Assembly: GCA_017640485.1 (NCBI GenBank)
Contig: JAEPQP010000006.1
Coordinates: 1 to 52,914 of the forward strand
Direction of reading: 5' to 3'
Origin: Phycisphaerales bacterium
GTDB lineage: Bacteria > Planctomycetota > Phycisphaerae > Phycisphaerales > UBA1924
DNA length: 52,914 nt
The notes beneath the pieces are model-generated. The model did no database searches and was not told the origin of the DNA. It saw nothing but the letters and a program-made list of their open reading frames with translations. The translations under genes were made by a program, and so were the position numbers. This document shows, piece by piece, positions 16,445 to 22,483 of this stretch (its first letter is position 1; each line of letters begins with the position of its first letter).

Positions 16445-16471
16445 AATGGAGCCGGGGGGAATCGAACCCCC
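16445..16471. repeat. Left attachment site: copy of the tmRNA 3' end
   Basis: 27 bases identical to 22131-22157, covering the T-arm and acceptor end of tmRNA (minus-strand reading ends GGCTCCA). Beyond it the sequence has no tmRNA features, so this is a duplicated fragment and not a second tmRNA or tRNA gene. Confidence 0.9.
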
Positions 16472-16637
16472 AAATATCGAGCTTTACGGATACGCGAGTG
16501 GGGGAGCGCGTCGCTAGAAGCGTCGTTGGTCAGTGTCCATTACTGACTCGTGTCAATCATGCTTGGCCATCATTGCCAGAGCATGTTCGTCAGTCTATTT
16601 GTGTCCTCGCTGAGAGTGCTTCCGAGAGGGGGCACCC

Positions 16638-16868
16638 ATGAAACACGAGCATGCTGGATATGTGACGATCGATCTTGCTGAATCCGACTACTCAGATCTG
16701 ATTCAACTCCTGGATTCTCGGATCAAGAGCGAACGCGCCCGCGCTGCTGCGTATAAAGCTCATCGGGATCACTCAAATCAAATGGTCGCTAGTGGCCGTA
16801 TGTCGCAGCTGATCGCTCTGAGAAATGCTGTTGTGTCTGGATGTCGTCAGGAGGTGGACGATGTCTAA
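16638..16868 (+). CDS. Small unknown protein, first gene of the element
   Basis: 76 residues, mostly helical and charged ('AESDYSDLIQLLDSRIKSER', then 'AAAYKAHRDHSNQMVASGRM'), no membrane segment, no known motif. GAGAGGGGG lies just upstream of ATG 16638. The gene overlaps the next (Rep-like) start by eight bases, so the two are probably cotranslated. The long frame that would be continuous with the integrase in the excised circle ends at the TGA of 16639-16641, overlapping this ATG (ATGA). In the circular form this gene would therefore lie directly downstream of the integrase in the same operon. Confidence 0.7.
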   Translation: MKHEHAGYVTIDLAESDYSDLIQLLDSRIKSERARAAAYKAHRDHSNQMVASGRMSQLIALRNAVVSGCRQEVDDV

Positions 16869-18075
16869 GGAAGCTACAGGCAACAGTGGGGCAGTAGGCA
16901 GTGCCCGCGAGGATCGCGGGTCTGCCTGCTCCCCTGCTGTGCCTCTTCCCGCCCGCCGGTCGCCGTCGGAGCATCGCCCCTCGCAAGAGGTCCGGGGCGA
17001 TGCGGAGCGGCGAGTGGTGGGCGGGCCCCCCGCCCGTCGGGAGCCTGAGGTGCGGAGCCTTGGTATTTATCCCCGCATTGTAACACCGGGGATAGAAACC
17101 CAAAACCCGGATAATCAAGCACCAGAGCCGGGTATGTCCAGTCGGCCTGATTGGATTCGCTTGTCGGGTCCAGACTCGCAAAAGGAGTGGCTCATGGATC
17201 TAATCTGGTCAAGATATGGAGAGTACATGTCCATGAGTGGTGCAAAGCACTATGAGGCGGGTGCAATGTGGCCGTGTGGCATAATGATCAGTTGGCGGAA
17301 GAGTTCAAACGGATTGCTGATTGATATGCAAGGACAGTTTCTGTCATCGACACCAGTTGATGAGTTCATGAATCTGACACGAGAGATCATGATGCATGGC
17401 TTCCACTGCACACGGATCGATTTAGCGGTGGATCATGTTGGTATGGATCTTAACCTGTACACCAATGCAGTCGAGTCATGCGAATCGGGATGCTTATGTA
17501 AACTGCGCACCCATGCGCCAAACCCGGAATACAAAGCTGATGGGACTGTAACTCGCCGGTTGTTGAAAATCGGCCAGCGTGGTTCACCTGTTTGTGTCCG
17601 AATCTATGACAAGGGGCTCCACACGAAGCTGTTCCCATGCGGTCACTGGGAGCGATTTGAAGTCGAGTTCAAAGACGACAAAGCCCCTGAGGTTTGTATG
17701 GCATTAGTCCGTGCTGGAGATGAATTGCCAGATCTGATATGGCGGTATGTCATCGGTGCAGTTGACTTTCGTATCAAGAATGGGCGTTCAGAGCTCGACC
17801 GAAGACCTCGGTCTGGGTGGTGGGATGAGTATGTAGGCCATGCGGTACCCATACTGAATAAGCCGATCAGAAAAGAGAGTGGCTTCGAGAGCTGGTGTAA
17901 CCATTTCCGAGTGACAGCCGGAGCGCGCCTGATACAACTCTCAAACATACTCGGCATGACACCCCAACAGTTCTTCAGTCAATTGATCGAGGGTCTTGAG
18001 CCATCAACTACGGTTGTGCCAGCGACGGTCGATGCTAAGAACTACATTCAATCGTTCAAGGACACCCCGCGCTAA
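16861..18075 (+). CDS. Rep_trans-like replication initiation protein
   Basis: 404 residues from ATG 16861, preceded by AGGAGG at about 8 bases. Residues 1-90 are low-complexity (Arg, Pro, Glu, Ser) and lie over a cluster of DNA hairpins. The folded part starts near Met92 (17134), which is an alternative start. It shows 'TRIDLAVDHVG' near 190, 'VCVRIYDKGLHTK' and 'HWERFEVEFKDD' near 250-275, the pattern of the replication initiation factor family (plasmid Rep_trans, filamentous-phage RstA-like, ICE replication proteins) that nick DNA for rolling-circle replication. The catalytic Tyr was not identified with confidence. It overlaps the convergent cargo gene by 20 bases. It suggests that the excised element can replicate. 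Confidence 0.75.
   Translation: MSKEATGNSGAVGSAREDRGSACSPAVPLPARRSPSEHRPSQEVRGDAERRVVGGPPARREPEVRSLGIYPRIVTPGIETQNPDNQAPEPGMSSRPDWIRLSGPDSQKEWLMDLIWSRYGEYMSMSGAKHYEAGAMWPCGIMISWRKSSNGLLIDMQGQFLSSTPVDEFMNLTREIMMHGFHCTRIDLAVDHVGMDLNLYTNAVESCESGCLCKLRTHAPNPEYKADGTVTRRLLKIGQRGSPVCVRIYDKGLHTKLFPCGHWERFEVEFKDDKAPEVCMALVRAGDELPDLIWRYVIGAVDFRIKNGRSELDRRPRSGWWDEYVGHAVPILNKPIRKESGFESWCNHFRVTAGARLIQLSNILGMTPQQFFSQLIEGLEPSTTVVPATVDAKNYIQSFKDTPR
16888..17094. repeat. Cluster of inverted repeats, candidate replication origin
   Basis: Within 207 bases there are four strong hairpins. CCCGCGA/TCGCGGG is at 16904-16920, nested in a partial outer stem 16888-16934. GCATCGCCCC/GGGGCGATGC is at 16971-16980 with 16994-17003 (10 bp perfect). 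GGGCGGG/CCCGCCC is at 17019-17035. TATCCCCG/CGGGGATA is at 17068-17075 with 17087-17094. The code here gives a low-complexity protein segment, so the DNA structure seems to be what is kept. An origin lying inside or just before rep is common in rolling-circle replicons; the assignment here is inference. Confidence 0.5.
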
Positions 18076-20089
18076 ACGCGGTGAGGAAGGAGCTGATATC
18101 GAAGAAGTCGAAGAGTCCATCTCCATTAAAGTCTGCTGTTGGGTCTTGGAACGTATATGAGGAAATGAAACTTGAAATGTCAAAGAAATCAAGCGATCCG
18201 TCGCCATTGAGATCAGTGAGGCAGTTCTTCGGGCAGTCGCTAACATCGATTATCTGAAGGCCAGAATCTTCATCTGCGATATAGGCGATAGAGCCCACTA
18301 CGACAACACTGTGAGCGATATCATCTGTATCGTAGAAACCTAGAGAGAACGGGGCTGCCGAATCACTGATATCGATAATCTGTAAACCAGATCGCCCATT
18401 AGCGAGGTAGGCGGTCGTGCCCACAATAGTGACGCCGCGTACATCGCTGCTTGGTACTTCCCACGACTCAATTAGATTGGGAAATTCTGGAGTACTGATA
18501 TCAATGATCTGCAAACCTGAGTCCATATCCGCGACATATGCAGTTGTGCCGATAATCTCTACAGAAAGTGCATAATCAGGAGTGTCGTATGAACCAATGA
18601 GACTGGGTAAAGTCGGATTGCTCACGTCGATGATTTGCATGCCAGAAGAGCCGTCAGCTACATATCCAGTGGTCCCTACAATCGTGATACTATTGGCTTG
18701 CCCGGGTGTGTCATATGACCCAAGGATTGATGGGGCGAGAGGTGTGCTGACATCAATGATCTGAATACCTGATCCGTCAGCCACATACACAGTTGTGCCT
18801 ACAACAGCTAAGCCTATAGCGCGGCTAGGTGTTTCATATGAGCCAAGAAAAGCCGGTGCTTCCGGATCGCTGATGTCGACAATCTCTAAGCCAGATTCCA
18901 AACCAGCAACATAGGCGATGTCTCCATTAACGGCGACACTGACAGCTTCATCAAGGGTCGCGTATGAGCCAAAACTTGAGGGGGCCATTGAATCACTAAT
19001 GTCAATAATCTGTAGGCCGGAGTTTCCATCGGCAATGTAGGCTGTTGTGCCTAAAACTACCAAATCGAAGGCTTGATCAGGTGTTTGGTACGCTCCTAGG
19101 AGCGGGGGTGACTTGGGGTCGCTAACATCGATGATTTGCAGCGAAGTGTCATCAGCGACGTATGCAATGGTCCCATTCGTTGTCACGCTAAGTGATTGGC
19201 CTGGAGTTTCGTATGAACCTATAAACTCAACGTCGGCCGGATCGCTGACATTATAGATTTGTAGGCCATCTCTAGAATCAGCGACATAGGCTGTGGTGCC
19301 GTGAATAGTGATGTCATAGGCAGGGTTTGGGGTATCGAAGGATCCCATATTAACCGGTACTTCAGGGTTGCTAATATCAATCATTTTGATGTCGTCATAA
19401 TTGCTGGCTAAATATGCGGTTGAGCCATGAATAGCGACGCTACGAGAATTTTCACCATAGCTGTAAGTACTAATGAGTTCAGGTGCTGTAGGAATACTAA
19501 TATCAATGATTTGCAGTCCAAAATGCCAATCAGCAACATAGGCTAAGCTGCCGACAATTTCTACTGCGCGTGCCCGTCCAGGCGTATCGTATGATCCAAT
19601 AGATAGCGGTGTAGATGGGTCACTTATATCGATGATAAGCAGGCCAGAATCCAAATCGGCGACATAGGCATAGTCGCCCACTACAGTGACATCTTGAGCA
19701 CTGCTCGGTGTTATATGCATGCCAACAAGTATGGGATCTGCAGGATTACTAATGTCAACAATATGTAGATCACCATCAAATCCGCCATTGGTGAAGTATG
19801 CTGTAGTGTCAACAACTGCAACATCTTCAAATTTTCCAGACTTCCCATATGATCCGAGAAACAATGGATTGGATGGATCACTGATATCAAGAATCTGCAG
19901 CCCAGCCCAATCTGCTACATAGGCGGTGGTGTTTTGGATAGCGACTTCATAAGTTCTGCTTGGGGATTCATACGATCCGAGGTAATCCCGATTTCGACAG
20001 ACCATCCCATCAGCATGTGCTTGTGACACAGCGGCTGAAATGAGACTCAGCGCGATTGCGGCAAATATCGACTGCAGGTATATGTGCAT
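18056..20089 (-). CDS. Secreted LVIVD-repeat beta-propeller protein with GC dockerin (element cargo)
   Basis: 677 residues. A signal peptide covers about 1-26 ('IFAAIALSLISAAVSQAHA'). About fourteen repeats of 42-43 residues follow, each of the form 'GTTAYVADxxSGLQIIDISD' then 'P..P..LGSYDTP', the LVIVD type that folds as beta-propeller blades. The C-terminus is a dockerin pair with 'DLNGDGSLDFFDIS' and 'DFNGDGLFDFFDIS', ending 'FSAGCP'. It lies inside the mobile element, opposite in strand to the other genes, and its 3' end overlaps rep by 20 bases. Base composition is more AT-rich than host dockerin genes, which points to transfer. It is the only obvious cargo; a role in adhesion or surface display is inferred. 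Confidence 0.88.
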   Translation of the reverse strand: MHIYLQSIFAAIALSLISAAVSQAHADGMVCRNRDYLGSYESPSRTYEVAIQNTTAYVADWAGLQILDISDPSNPLFLGSYGKSGKFEDVAVVDTTAYFTNGGFDGDLHIVDISNPADPILVGMHITPSSAQDVTVVGDYAYVADLDSGLLIIDISDPSTPLSIGSYDTPGRARAVEIVGSLAYVADWHFGLQIIDISIPTAPELISTYSYGENSRSVAIHGSTAYLASNYDDIKMIDISNPEVPVNMGSFDTPNPAYDITIHGTTAYVADSRDGLQIYNVSDPADVEFIGSYETPGQSLSVTTNGTIAYVADDTSLQIIDVSDPKSPPLLGAYQTPDQAFDLVVLGTTAYIADGNSGLQIIDISDSMAPSSFGSYATLDEAVSVAVNGDIAYVAGLESGLEIVDISDPEAPAFLGSYETPSRAIGLAVVGTTVYVADGSGIQIIDVSTPLAPSILGSYDTPGQANSITIVGTTGYVADGSSGMQIIDVSNPTLPSLIGSYDTPDYALSVEIIGTTAYVADMDSGLQIIDISTPEFPNLIESWEVPSSDVRGVTIVGTTAYLANGRSGLQIIDISDSAAPFSLGFYDTDDIAHSVVVVGSIAYIADEDSGLQIIDVSDCPKNCLTDLNGDGSLDFFDISSFISSYTFQDPTADFNGDGLFDFFDISSFLTAFSAGCP

Positions 20090-20225: not shown

Positions 20226-20254
20226 GTGACAAACAACGACAAACCGTGACAAAC
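20226..20254 (+). promoter_or_regulatory. Three 10-bp iterons GACAAAC in the control region of the element
   Basis: GACAAAC occurs at 20228-20234, 20238-20244 and 20248-20254, exactly ten bases apart, with GTGACAAACA forms at the first and third copy. It lies between the divergent cargo gene (start 20089) and the regulator-excisionase-integrase operon (start 20321). One-helical-turn spacing suits a cooperative DNA-binding protein such as the ribbon-helix-helix protein next to it, or a Rep/Xis protein. Confidence 0.6.
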
Positions 20255-20320: not shown

Positions 20321-20674
20321 ATGAAAAGCAGAGACCGCATCACGACCACGCTGGATTCCTCGCTCATCGAACGTATCGATCGTGTCGCCGAGTTTCGGAA
20401 TGAATCACGATCAGCAACCATCGACCGGATGCTCGCAAATGGCATCGAGGATGAGGAGAAGATGCTGGAATCAATCGGGGTAGGGGTGCAGGGCCGGATC
20501 ATCGCGCTCCTCATCGAAAATCCGAAGATTCTGAACTCCTTATCCAAAGCCGTCGGCGAGGCGCTCACTGATGAACAACTCGCCAGTATCGAAGAGAGTG
20601 GGTCGGATGTGATCGCTGCTGGGAAACGCTATCGAAACTACAAGAAAACTGTCGTGGAGAAAGGAAAGAAGTGA
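20321..20674 (+). CDS. Ribbon-helix-helix DNA-binding protein
   Basis: 117 residues. The N-terminus 'RDRITTTLDSSLIERIDRVA' then 'EFRNESRSATIDRML' is a clear CopG/Arc/MetJ-type fold: a strand pairing through 'ITTTLD' and two helices around 'NESRSA'. The C-terminal 70 residues are helical and Lys-rich. It is first of a three-gene operon with the excisionase-like protein (4 bp gap) and the integrase, so it probably controls integration/excision or copy number. The three GACAAAC iterons about 70-95 bases upstream are its likely operator (inference). No Shine-Dalgarno sequence is evident before the ATG, in line with a possible leaderless transcript. Confidence 0.85.
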   Translation: MKSRDRITTTLDSSLIERIDRVAEFRNESRSATIDRMLANGIEDEEKMLESIGVGVQGRIIALLIENPKILNSLSKAVGEALTDEQLASIEESGSDVIAAGKRYRNYKKTVVEKGKK

Positions 20675-20678
20675 TCAG

Positions 20679-20867
20679 ATGCAAAAATCAGATCGGCTCA
20701 TAGCAATCAAGGATGTAGCCAAGATGCTGTGCATGAGTGTCCGCACAATGGAACGGCGTATCAAAAAGGGTTTGATGCCTCCACCTGAATACAACGGGCC
20801 AAGACGGGTTTATCGCGAGTCTGTGATACCTGTGCTCATCAAACAAGCGACAAGGGGGGAATCATGA
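20679..20867 (+). CDS. Excisionase-like winged helix-turn-helix protein
   Basis: 62 residues with 'IAIKDVAKMLCMSVRTMERR' followed by 'IKKGLMPPPEYNGPRRVYRE', the compact MerR/AlpA-type fold used by phage and island excisionases (Xis) and by AlpA-like activators. The basic recognition helix and the wing residues are complete. It starts four bases after the ribbon-helix-helix gene, and its TGA overlaps the integrase ATG (ATGA), so it is made with the integrase. The likely job is to steer the integrase towards excision by bending DNA at att arms. An alternative is a transcription activator of the operon. Confidence 0.85.
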   Translation: MQKSDRLIAIKDVAKMLCMSVRTMERRIKKGLMPPPEYNGPRRVYRESVIPVLIKQATRGES

Positions 20868-22195
20868 GCTCTCTCAGTCCACACACCGAAGTCGGGTATG
20901 TCAAGCGGAACAAACGCAAGGGCAAGCCCTATGGCAACTACATCGGCTACTACAGATTCCCTGACGAGGTTGAAATAACGAAGATCAACCTCCAAATCAG
21001 AGATAAGCGATTCGCTGAGCAGAAACTTCGCGAGCTTATTGAACAAACGCACGCTGTACGAACAGGGCTGAAGCCAAGTGATGAACTGCTCAACGCAGCC
21101 GCTAAGCCACTTGCGGAGTACATTGAAGACTACGTACTGAGTATGAAGGCGCGCAAACTCAAGCACGAAACGATTCGGAAGATTGGGCCGATGCTTCGGC
21201 GCTTGTTCAATGATTGCGAATGGAATCGGATATCAGATCTTTCGGCATCTGGCTTTGAGTCATGGCGTGCTTCTGTGGCTCTCTCATCGAAAGCACAAAA
21301 CCATCACTTGAATACAGCGAAGGCGTTCACGAACTGGCTCATCACGATTCAAGTCTGTGAACGGAATCCGTTCAAGGGGATTAAGCCTGCAAGGGTGATT
21401 GGCAACGAAACCCGCCCCAGACGGGCGCTCAACATAGACGAGGTCGATCGTTTGGTGAAACACTGTCCGTGTCCACGCCGACGGATGATCTACATGATCG
21501 CTTTTGCCACCGCTGCACGCAGCTCGGAGATGAAGGGCTTCCGATGGTCAGATATTCACCTCTGCTCGAATGATCCCGCGATCACATACCGAAATAGCAA
21601 CACCAAGAGCACAAAGCCTGAGCGCAATCCAATACCCCATTGGCTTGCAGATTCATTGCGAGAGTTCAAGCCAGAGAACGCCAAGCCTGATGATCTGGTG
21701 TTCTCGAAATGGATTGGTAACCATTCGCTGAACAAGGATCTTGAAAGAGCTGGGATTCCAAAACACAATGCACACGGCGAATCAGCGTGTTTGTATTCAC
21801 TCAGGCACGGGTTCAATCAGACAATGTTGGAATCCAACATTCCGTTCCGACATGCCCAGCGATTGATGCGGCACAGCGACCCCAAGCATACCGCCAACAC
21901 CTATCTTGATTCAGATGGCCTCAACCTTCGTGAGAGTATCGATAAACTCCCCGCGGTCGGAGAGCACCCGCGCGTCGCCAGAAGCGTCGTTGAGGTGGTC
22001 GAGGAGCGACTCGGAGTGTCAGTGAATGTCGCGGTGAATGAAAATTCTGATCTTCAAAGAACCGCAATCGCTGTTTCTGGACGGGAATCCATGACACCAA
22101 ATGTCGCAGAGTGTCCAGATCATCAAAGTAAATGGAGCCGGGGGGAATCGAACCCCCGTCCCGGGATTGTCAGTAGAGTGCTTCTACGAGTGTAG
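20864..22195 (+). CDS. Tyrosine recombinase (integrase) of the ssrA element
   Basis: 443 residues in the integrated state. There is an N-terminal arm-binding-like part, a SAM-like core-binding domain (about residues 85-165), and a catalytic domain with Arg219 ('ATAARSSEMKG'), Arg314/His315 ('YSLRHGF'), His337 ('LMRHSDPKHT') and the nucleophile Tyr347 ('TANTYLD'). The first His of the usual H-x-x-R box is Tyr311. The last 21 codons lie in the att core and the tmRNA gene, so they are host DNA read in an incidental frame ('WSRGESNPRP'). In the circular form the frame would go on through the left end to 16641, giving 487 residues. It catalyses site-specific insertion at ssrA. Its start overlaps the Xis-like gene. 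Confidence 0.93.
   Translation: MSSLSPHTEVGYVKRNKRKGKPYGNYIGYYRFPDEVEITKINLQIRDKRFAEQKLRELIEQTHAVRTGLKPSDELLNAAAKPLAEYIEDYVLSMKARKLKHETIRKIGPMLRRLFNDCEWNRISDLSASGFESWRASVALSSKAQNHHLNTAKAFTNWLITIQVCERNPFKGIKPARVIGNETRPRRALNIDEVDRLVKHCPCPRRRMIYMIAFATAARSSEMKGFRWSDIHLCSNDPAITYRNSNTKSTKPERNPIPHWLADSLREFKPENAKPDDLVFSKWIGNHSLNKDLERAGIPKHNAHGESACLYSLRHGFNQTMLESNIPFRHAQRLMRHSDPKHTANTYLDSDGLNLRESIDKLPAVGEHPRVARSVVEVVEERLGVSVNVAVNENSDLQRTAIAVSGRESMTPNVAECPDHQSKWSRGESNPRPGIVSRVLLRV
22131..22157. repeat. Right attachment site, within the intact tmRNA 3' end
   Basis: 27 bases identical to 16445-16471. It covers the discriminator base, the acceptor 3' strand and the T-arm of tmRNA, the classic target segment of tyrosine integrases. 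The repeat ends exactly where left and right differ (A after the C run on the left, G on the right). Confidence 0.9.
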
Positions 22196-22483
22196 TCGTT
22201 GGTTTGATCTCGACCTTACACCGGGCAACGACACCCTGTGGTTTGGTCCAGTCTCTTGAAACCTCCTTGCCAATGCGCCAAGAGACGCCACGCATTGACC
22301 AGCCCGATGATCGTGATCCACCACCTCATCGGGCGTCGAGTGGTGGATCCGTAGCCACTATTAGGCTGCGAGTGCGTACTGCGGTTCGGCAGATATAAAG
22401 TTGCGTACTTTTTACGAGGCTAGCACGCTCCTCGACTCGCCACACAAAACCTTCCCAATCCGGTCGAATGCCATATCGGCCCC
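22133..22483 (-). ncRNA. ssrA: Transfer-messenger RNA (tmRNA)
   Basis: On the minus strand, GGGGCCG at the 5' end (22483-22477) pairs with CGGCTCC at the 3' end, followed by A at 22133. The CCA tail is not encoded. The T-arm GGTTCGATTCC and the conserved pre-tag stretch CTCGTAAAAAG are present. The tag frame at 22390-22364 reads A-E-P-Q-Y-A-L-A-A and ends with TAA-TAG. With the charged alanine the tag would be AAEPQYALAA. It rescues stalled ribosomes with SmpB and marks the peptide for proteolysis. Its 3' end is the integration site of the element at 16445-22157 and stays functional after insertion. Confidence 0.95.

Follow-up and report, generated by a model that had tools for sequence, protein, structure and literature searches.

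Why would the reading frame of an integrase run on through the attachment core and into the opposite end of its own element? We encountered this question in a window of 52,914 nucleotides from a Phycisphaerales bacterium (assembly GCA_017640485.1, contig JAEPQP010000006.1; "the window" denotes this whole stretch), where a 5.7-kb element lies between two exact 27-bp copies of an att core, AATGGAGCCGGGGGGAATCGAACCCCC, at 16445-16471 and 22131-22157. The right copy coincides with the 3' end of a tmRNA gene (22133-22483, minus strand) that is intact, and the element thus shows the direct repeat of a tDNA 3' end and the intact tDNA at one end that mark a tDNA-targeting integrative element. Its features are as follows.

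16445..16471, + strand: attL core, a copy of the tmRNA 3' end, identical to 22131-22157
16472..16641, + strand: int tail, 56 codons past the core plus a stop, with a conserved W-P-S-L-P-E-H-V-R motif
16506..16528, + strand: left arm-type direct repeat, GCGCGTCGCTAGAAGCGTCGTTG, within the tail frame; agrees with 21970-21992 at 22 of 23 bases
16638..16868, + strand: 76-aa gene (p76), its start overlapping the tail stop (ATGA)
16861..18075, + strand: rep, Rep_trans replication initiation protein of about 404 aa (PF02486, E 7.5e-14)
18056..20089, - strand: cargo, LVIVD-repeat beta-propeller protein (PF08309, E 1.2e-117)
20228..20254, + strand: three GACAAAC iterons with a 10-bp period, upstream of the operon; a candidate operator
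20321..20674, + strand: rhh, ribbon-helix-helix (CopG-like) regulator, a weak assignment (PF01402, E 0.007, below the Pfam cut-off)
20679..20867, + strand: xis, excisionase-like helix-turn-helix protein (phrog_9834, E 4.8e-7)
20864..22195, + strand: int, tyrosine integrase, 443 aa as integrated (PF00589, E 3.1e-14)
21970..21992, + strand: right arm-type direct repeat, within int from near residue 369
22131..22157, + strand: attR core, inside int and overlapping the tmRNA 3' end
22133..22483, - strand: tmRNA gene, intact, the attB target (ARAGORN and Rfam RF00023, 162 bits)

The genes are tightly packed. A common ATGA joins xis to int at 20864 and another joins the tail to p76 at 16638, rhh and xis lie 4 bases apart, and rep probably begins at ATG 16861, which overlaps the p76 stop and has a Shine-Dalgarno-like AGGAGGT ahead of it. 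The PF02486 protein is the kind of initiator that a Rep_trans replicon would carry, and relatives of p76 occur in three sibling stretches (L049, L050 and L058). The window's own genome holds a second Rep_trans homologue on a different contig (L054, G000:C14:4001-4873), a 10-kb contig in which neither tRNA nor tmRNA was found. As for the cargo, the C-terminal 50-70 residues of the LVIVD-repeat protein recur at many places around the siblings, and we read them as dockerin-like.

We found, as the initial annotation had claimed, that the int frame crosses the att core and that, followed in phase, the left end stays open for 56 codons up to a TGA at 16639-16641 that overlaps the ATG at 16638 (ATGA). 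From its start at 20864, int encodes 443 aa in the integrated state, ending at 22193-22195, i.e., 38 bases past the right core within tmRNA DNA, while in the circle reading it would encode 487 aa. By this frame reading, integration swaps the native tail of Int for about 12 tmRNA-derived residues past the core, again as first proposed. In the integrated copies that we read, the core thus lies inside an int open reading frame that is coding on both sides, which is the arrangement of an intragenic attP of the Mx8 type. The annotation had also held that the circle would couple int to a Rep-like operon headed by the 76-aa gene. This stands for the joining, since the gene overlaps would connect int to p76 and rep; it does not stand for p76 itself, which has no match in Pfam or PHROG, the Rep_trans protein being encoded by the next gene.

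An open stretch of about 60 codons is by itself weak evidence against chance. We collected siblings through Rep and int searches of related genomes, after which the surrounding stretches (L numbers; genomes are given as G numbers) were fetched; their sites are the same tmRNA as well as tRNA genes. Among the 18 elements with both ends on one contig, the phase of int at the right core equals the phase of the left-end tail motif in 16, where 6 would be expected, and a binomial test at 1/3 gives 1.7e-6, a value that is too small because the elements are related. All ten tmRNA right ends match (the window, L050, L051b, L053, L057, L058, L105, L107, L108 and L206), as do six of the eight tRNA-type right ends (Val, Lys, Phe, Glu, Asp and Val). 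L053 lies in the opposite orientation, so that the other strand of the core is read, and is still phase-matched. In one of the two mismatches, L201, int's frame, followed from the left core, resembles the intact L193 tail over about 100 bases before it shifts, and no recognised tRNA contains the right core; in the other, L205 (Ala), the tail frame has a stop inside the core.

Some of these pairings need qualification. L051a and L051b have one right end, counted once in the 16 of 18; the phase of L050 rests on a C-terminal piece, because its int is broken into two frames; and for L198, which has two integrases, the one overlapping the tRNA was used. Left ends L049, L106, L170-L172, L188 and L224 have no right end in the same fetched stretch and were not paired; in one set of 20 fetched tail loci, 9 were paired and 11 were not. 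Compared by genome, outside the count of 18, G090, G494, G419, G347 and G497 are phase-matched. G291 is not: its left end is in phase 0 and its int in phase 2, on different contigs, and the two may belong to two elements.

Two variants of the layout were seen among the siblings. In G090 (L171 with L064) and G494 (L188 with L056), tmRNA-core left ends lie about 75 and 83 kb, respectively, from an integrase on the same contig with phase 2 matched; these are much larger or composite elements of the same layout. In a tandem arrangement, L051 and L052 (G221:C12:50000-80000), one integrase follows two left ends that have Rep genes. No int was found in the left unit of the tandem, which carries Type ISP methylase, SNF2/PLD helicase and CBS-domain genes, while the right unit carries DUF2130.

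The int frame is open through the tmRNA core in all 15 right ends examined, and it passes in phase 2 (8 ends), phase 0 (4) or phase 1 (3). Three core phases need at least two joint phase changes of int and tail, which suggests that selection keeps a single frame running through the core. When nine left ends were tested against a right end (two of the nine having one right end in common), the motif W..L....R stood in int's phase in every case, with Q for R in L108. The same phase was the longest open of the three in eight; in the exception, L050, another phase was open longer (102 vs 63 codons). The tail stop falls on ATGA in eight of the nine and on TTGA in L105, and across 28 readable tail loci the stop overlaps the next start at ATG in 18, as GTGA in 4 and as TTGA in 1, with 5 showing no overlap. 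The motif occupies exactly one phase in 10 of 11 tmRNA-core left ends; the remaining one, L106, was missed by the simple pattern, its tail being caught by the profile. Thus, relatives keep both the frame and the tail, and where non-coding statistics were looked for, their left ends behave as coding instead. Together, these comparisons of sequence indicate that the continuation of int into the left end is more than chance.

We then asked how widely the tail is spread and whether it is maintained. Aligned siblings have the tail motif W..LP..VR.AI..L, for which no family was found in Pfam or NCBIfam. At E 0.001, a profile of ten tails hits 106 of the 163 family genomes, and at E 1e-4 a shorter tail profile hits 45 of 246 genomes taken from the phylum; both figures count matches rather than proven elements. 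A tDNA T-loop signature (tRNA or tmRNA) precedes the tail in 24 of 29 family loci vs 0 of 29 downstream control windows, in 11 of 15 once the 14 tmRNA-core loci are removed (the tmRNA core was part of the search profile), and in 16 of 29 loci vs 1 of 29 controls phylum-wide, each set of 29 comprising the best-scoring loci and not all matches. Among five tmRNA left ends that are closely related, each from its own genome and none of them the window's, dN/dS-like ratios of the tails were 0.38-0.56 in nine of ten pairs and 0.89 in one, and pooled pN/pS was 0.44 for the tail domain and 0.52 for the linker. In these five left ends the tail looks to be under purifying selection. The tails of L206 and L220 (G504 and G461, genomes of different genera) differ by one synonymous and one nonsynonymous change, and such near-identity suggests recent transfer.

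The core is flanked by a further pair of repeats that bear on where attP sits within the protein. Measured from start to start, the two copies of the window's 23-bp repeat lie 61 bp downstream of the left core and 161 bp upstream of the right core, and the best 16-base window agrees at 15 of 16 positions, compared to 12 of 16 or fewer in 20 shuffles. Of 16 left/right pairs, 13 have such repeats with a better match than any of 20 shuffles (the window, L050, L051a, L051b, L057, L058, L107, L108, L190, L192, L196, L204 and L206); L105 and L199 equal the best shuffle, and L198 falls below it. The arm sequences vary among elements and agree between the two arms of one element, at similar distances, and so the repeats flanking the core behave, as far as their sequences tell, as arm-type Int sites should.

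In a structural model, Int is folded to residue 368, with beta strands at the N-terminus, and is disordered over residues 369-443 (ten-residue means of 26-30 from residue 371). The modelled onset of disorder at residue 369 is where the right arm repeat begins. The packing of domains in this model is uncertain because it was built from 5 sequences and has a pTM of 0.45. The TM-scores by query of its best Foldseek matches are low, at 0.31 for Brujita Int (E 4.3e-11) and 0.29 for lambda Int (E 1.0e-8). Together with the PF00589 catalytic domain (E 3.1e-14), this Int fold identifies the enzyme as a tyrosine recombinase. Since the arm repeats lie inside the frame and disorder is modelled there, attP sits in a linker between the catalytic domain and the C-terminal tail.

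A linker position also suits a passive tail, i.e., one that is coding and yet has no regulatory role, with attP placed in a dispensable linker and the int-rep arrangement being ordinary compact packing. The catalytic domain is complete without the tail and the genes that follow the tail vary among elements, as this explanation would have it, and we regard it as a possibility to be taken seriously, if a rather doubtful one. It accounts poorly for the conservation of tail residues among distant integrases and through three core phases, for the signs of purifying selection, and for a frame that is kept on both sides of the core.

We searched for int and tail joined on one molecule. The excised circle was not found: a core-pattern scan of IMG/VR returned 22 matches, with no int-core-tail fusion of this integrase family among them, no close int was found in plasmid and phage records, and a first scan of genome and viral contigs with int alone found nothing. 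The sole IMG/VR contig with an int across the tmRNA core (L136/L147) was rejected as a candidate; its left end is open for about 55 codons in phase 1, without a clear tail motif. Where int directly precedes a tail, no clean junction was seen: in L238 and L245 the two are out of frame, the junction in L226 is in frame but has a stop, and in L106/L169 int is frameshifted. In L216, an int carries a tail-like end (E 3e-5) within the same open reading frame, which fits a native C-terminal piece of an integrase.

These junctions bear on whether the left-end frame is instead a separate small gene (a directionality factor, for example) with its own start, its phase match with int being incidental. The different frames of int and tail in L238 and L245 would agree with this, and tail frames often overlap the following gene, as members of an ordinary operon do; a GTG or TTG also precedes the motif in 10 of 10 left ends, and an ATG does so in 2 of 10. 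Nevertheless, with ATG absent between core and motif in 8 of 10 left ends, a phase match in 16 of 18 elements and a tail-like end fused to int in L216, a separate gene is improbable. A chance open frame with a chance stop on the next start codon can be dismissed as next to impossible: about 60 open codons alone are not rare and a non-int phase of L050 is open longer, but all nine left ends tested have the motif in the phase of int, which is the longest phase in eight of them, the peptide is conserved, the T-loop context is family-wide, and the sibling comparison has already refuted this reading.

The explanation that we prefer, and consider probable, is that attP lies inside the linker of int, so that integration cuts off the tail and uncouples rep, while excision restores one operon. 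With attP placed within the frame of int, insertion at the tmRNA 3' end cuts this open reading frame. The catalytic part is kept at the right end, and the tail is left at the left end, before p76 and rep and without an int start. In the excised circle, the tail would be rejoined and rhh-xis-int-p76-rep would form one coupled operon, read from upstream of rhh, the region of the three GACAAAC iterons, where we assume a promoter. Full-length Int and Rep would then be made together, along with the regulator, Xis and p76. Once integrated, Int would be the tail-less form beside the promoter, and the tail-p76-rep block would be cut off from that promoter; the loss would keep Rep from firing in the chromosome, favouring stable residence and avoiding rolling-circle initiation.

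A sigma-70 scan found no promoter upstream of rhh, its only match lying inside int, fewer than shuffles give, and near the element ends no sigma-70-type promoters or terminators stood clearly above chance. On the chromosomal side, only 29 bp separate the left core from the end of a 491-aa plus-strand open reading frame, with no terminator-like site found in between, which makes read-through from the chromosome into rep possible. The coupling to rep is special to Rep_trans elements. In siblings at tRNA sites, the gene after the tail differs, e.g., a Y-family DNA polymerase gene in L190, and so coupling to rep is not what the layout is generally for. We also considered a hairpin just past the core, where runs of C and G seem to pair, and rejected it: single-strand folding of three left ends was no better than that of shuffles.

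How does this layout compare with known systems? According to the available excerpts of PMC4701971, an att site inside an integrase gene is known from very few elements. The closest design is that of Myxococcus phage Mx8, in which attP likewise lies inside the tyrosine integrase gene and the C-terminus is swapped on integration, 112 residues for 13; the integrated form is reported to be less active or of altered specificity (PMC6070905 and PMC4701971, in excerpt). Mx8 Int has no similarity to the window tail (best domain score of the tail profile, -3.5 bits), and the excerpts of the same two papers describe no Rep coupling for Mx8. Thus, the design itself is Mx8-like, and what is new compared to Mx8 is the wide spread, a conserved tail of its own and the Rep coupling. 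In the Mx8 int (L260:5085-6806), a peptide resembling a tRNA 3' end, STGLEPVLLGS, stands ahead of the C-terminal part, like in the Planctomycete integrases; it is our reading of STGLEPV that it is tRNA-like.

For the coupling to replication, the nearest parallel is the haloarchaeal virus SNJ2, whose circularisation joins the int operon to replication genes, the replication region mapping there, and creates an open reading frame across attP (PMC13107129, in the portion available). SNJ2 differs in being an archaeal virus with another Rep family, and its attP-crossing orf26 lies downstream of int, not in it, according to the same portion. In Tn916, distinct transcripts arise only when the att sites are joined, as would happen here, whereas the genes so joined are conjugation genes (PMC6540685, in excerpt). 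The gene order and overlaps in the window would fit a circle-only operon like those of SNJ2 and Tn916. By analogy, the experiments on Mx8 bear on the first half of the circle mechanism (the change of Int), SNJ2 on the second (the joining of rep) and Tn916 on transcription across joined ends; for the element in the window, the functional consequences of tail loss and rep uncoupling are inferred.

Other systems share part of the design. In the archaeal suicidal integrases of SSV1, pTN3 and pT26-2, the site is inside the integrase gene and integration splits that gene, with N and C parts separated and the pieces described as inactive (PMC8371274, in excerpt); the window Int, in contrast, keeps its whole catalytic domain at the right end and loses only the tail. 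The available part of that review calls self-disrupting recombinases exclusively archaeal, a claim that the Planctomycete loci and Mx8 speak against. In mycobacteriophage BPs, attP is also inside a gene and integration shortens the C-terminus and changes function, although the interrupted gene encodes the repressor rather than an integrase and immunity is integration-dependent (PMC4557955, in excerpt). Streptococcus ICEs in rumA have an att site inside the integrase gene and an excised form of other length and C-terminus, but their integrases are serine integrases, as given in the excerpts of PMC4701971. Among the literature matches listed, mostly open-access papers, we found no description of the layout in Planctomycetota.

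With regard to the wider biology, we put at about even odds the broader proposal that integrases whose C-terminal domain is detachable form a large class in the Planctomycetota, in which attP and its arms sit in a disordered linker and the sites are the tmRNA gene and many tRNA genes; the enzyme would then report its own integration, and in Rep_trans elements the same cut would switch rep off. If so, what has been supposed a rarity, as far as the excerpts of PMC4701971 and PMC8371274 go, would become a family-wide bacterial design. It would provide numerous natural pairs for testing why an integrase gives up a part of itself, as well as a simple means by which a rolling-circle Rep is kept silent while the element is in the chromosome, and a tail that follows a tDNA fragment could serve as a sequence marker for the left ends of such elements.
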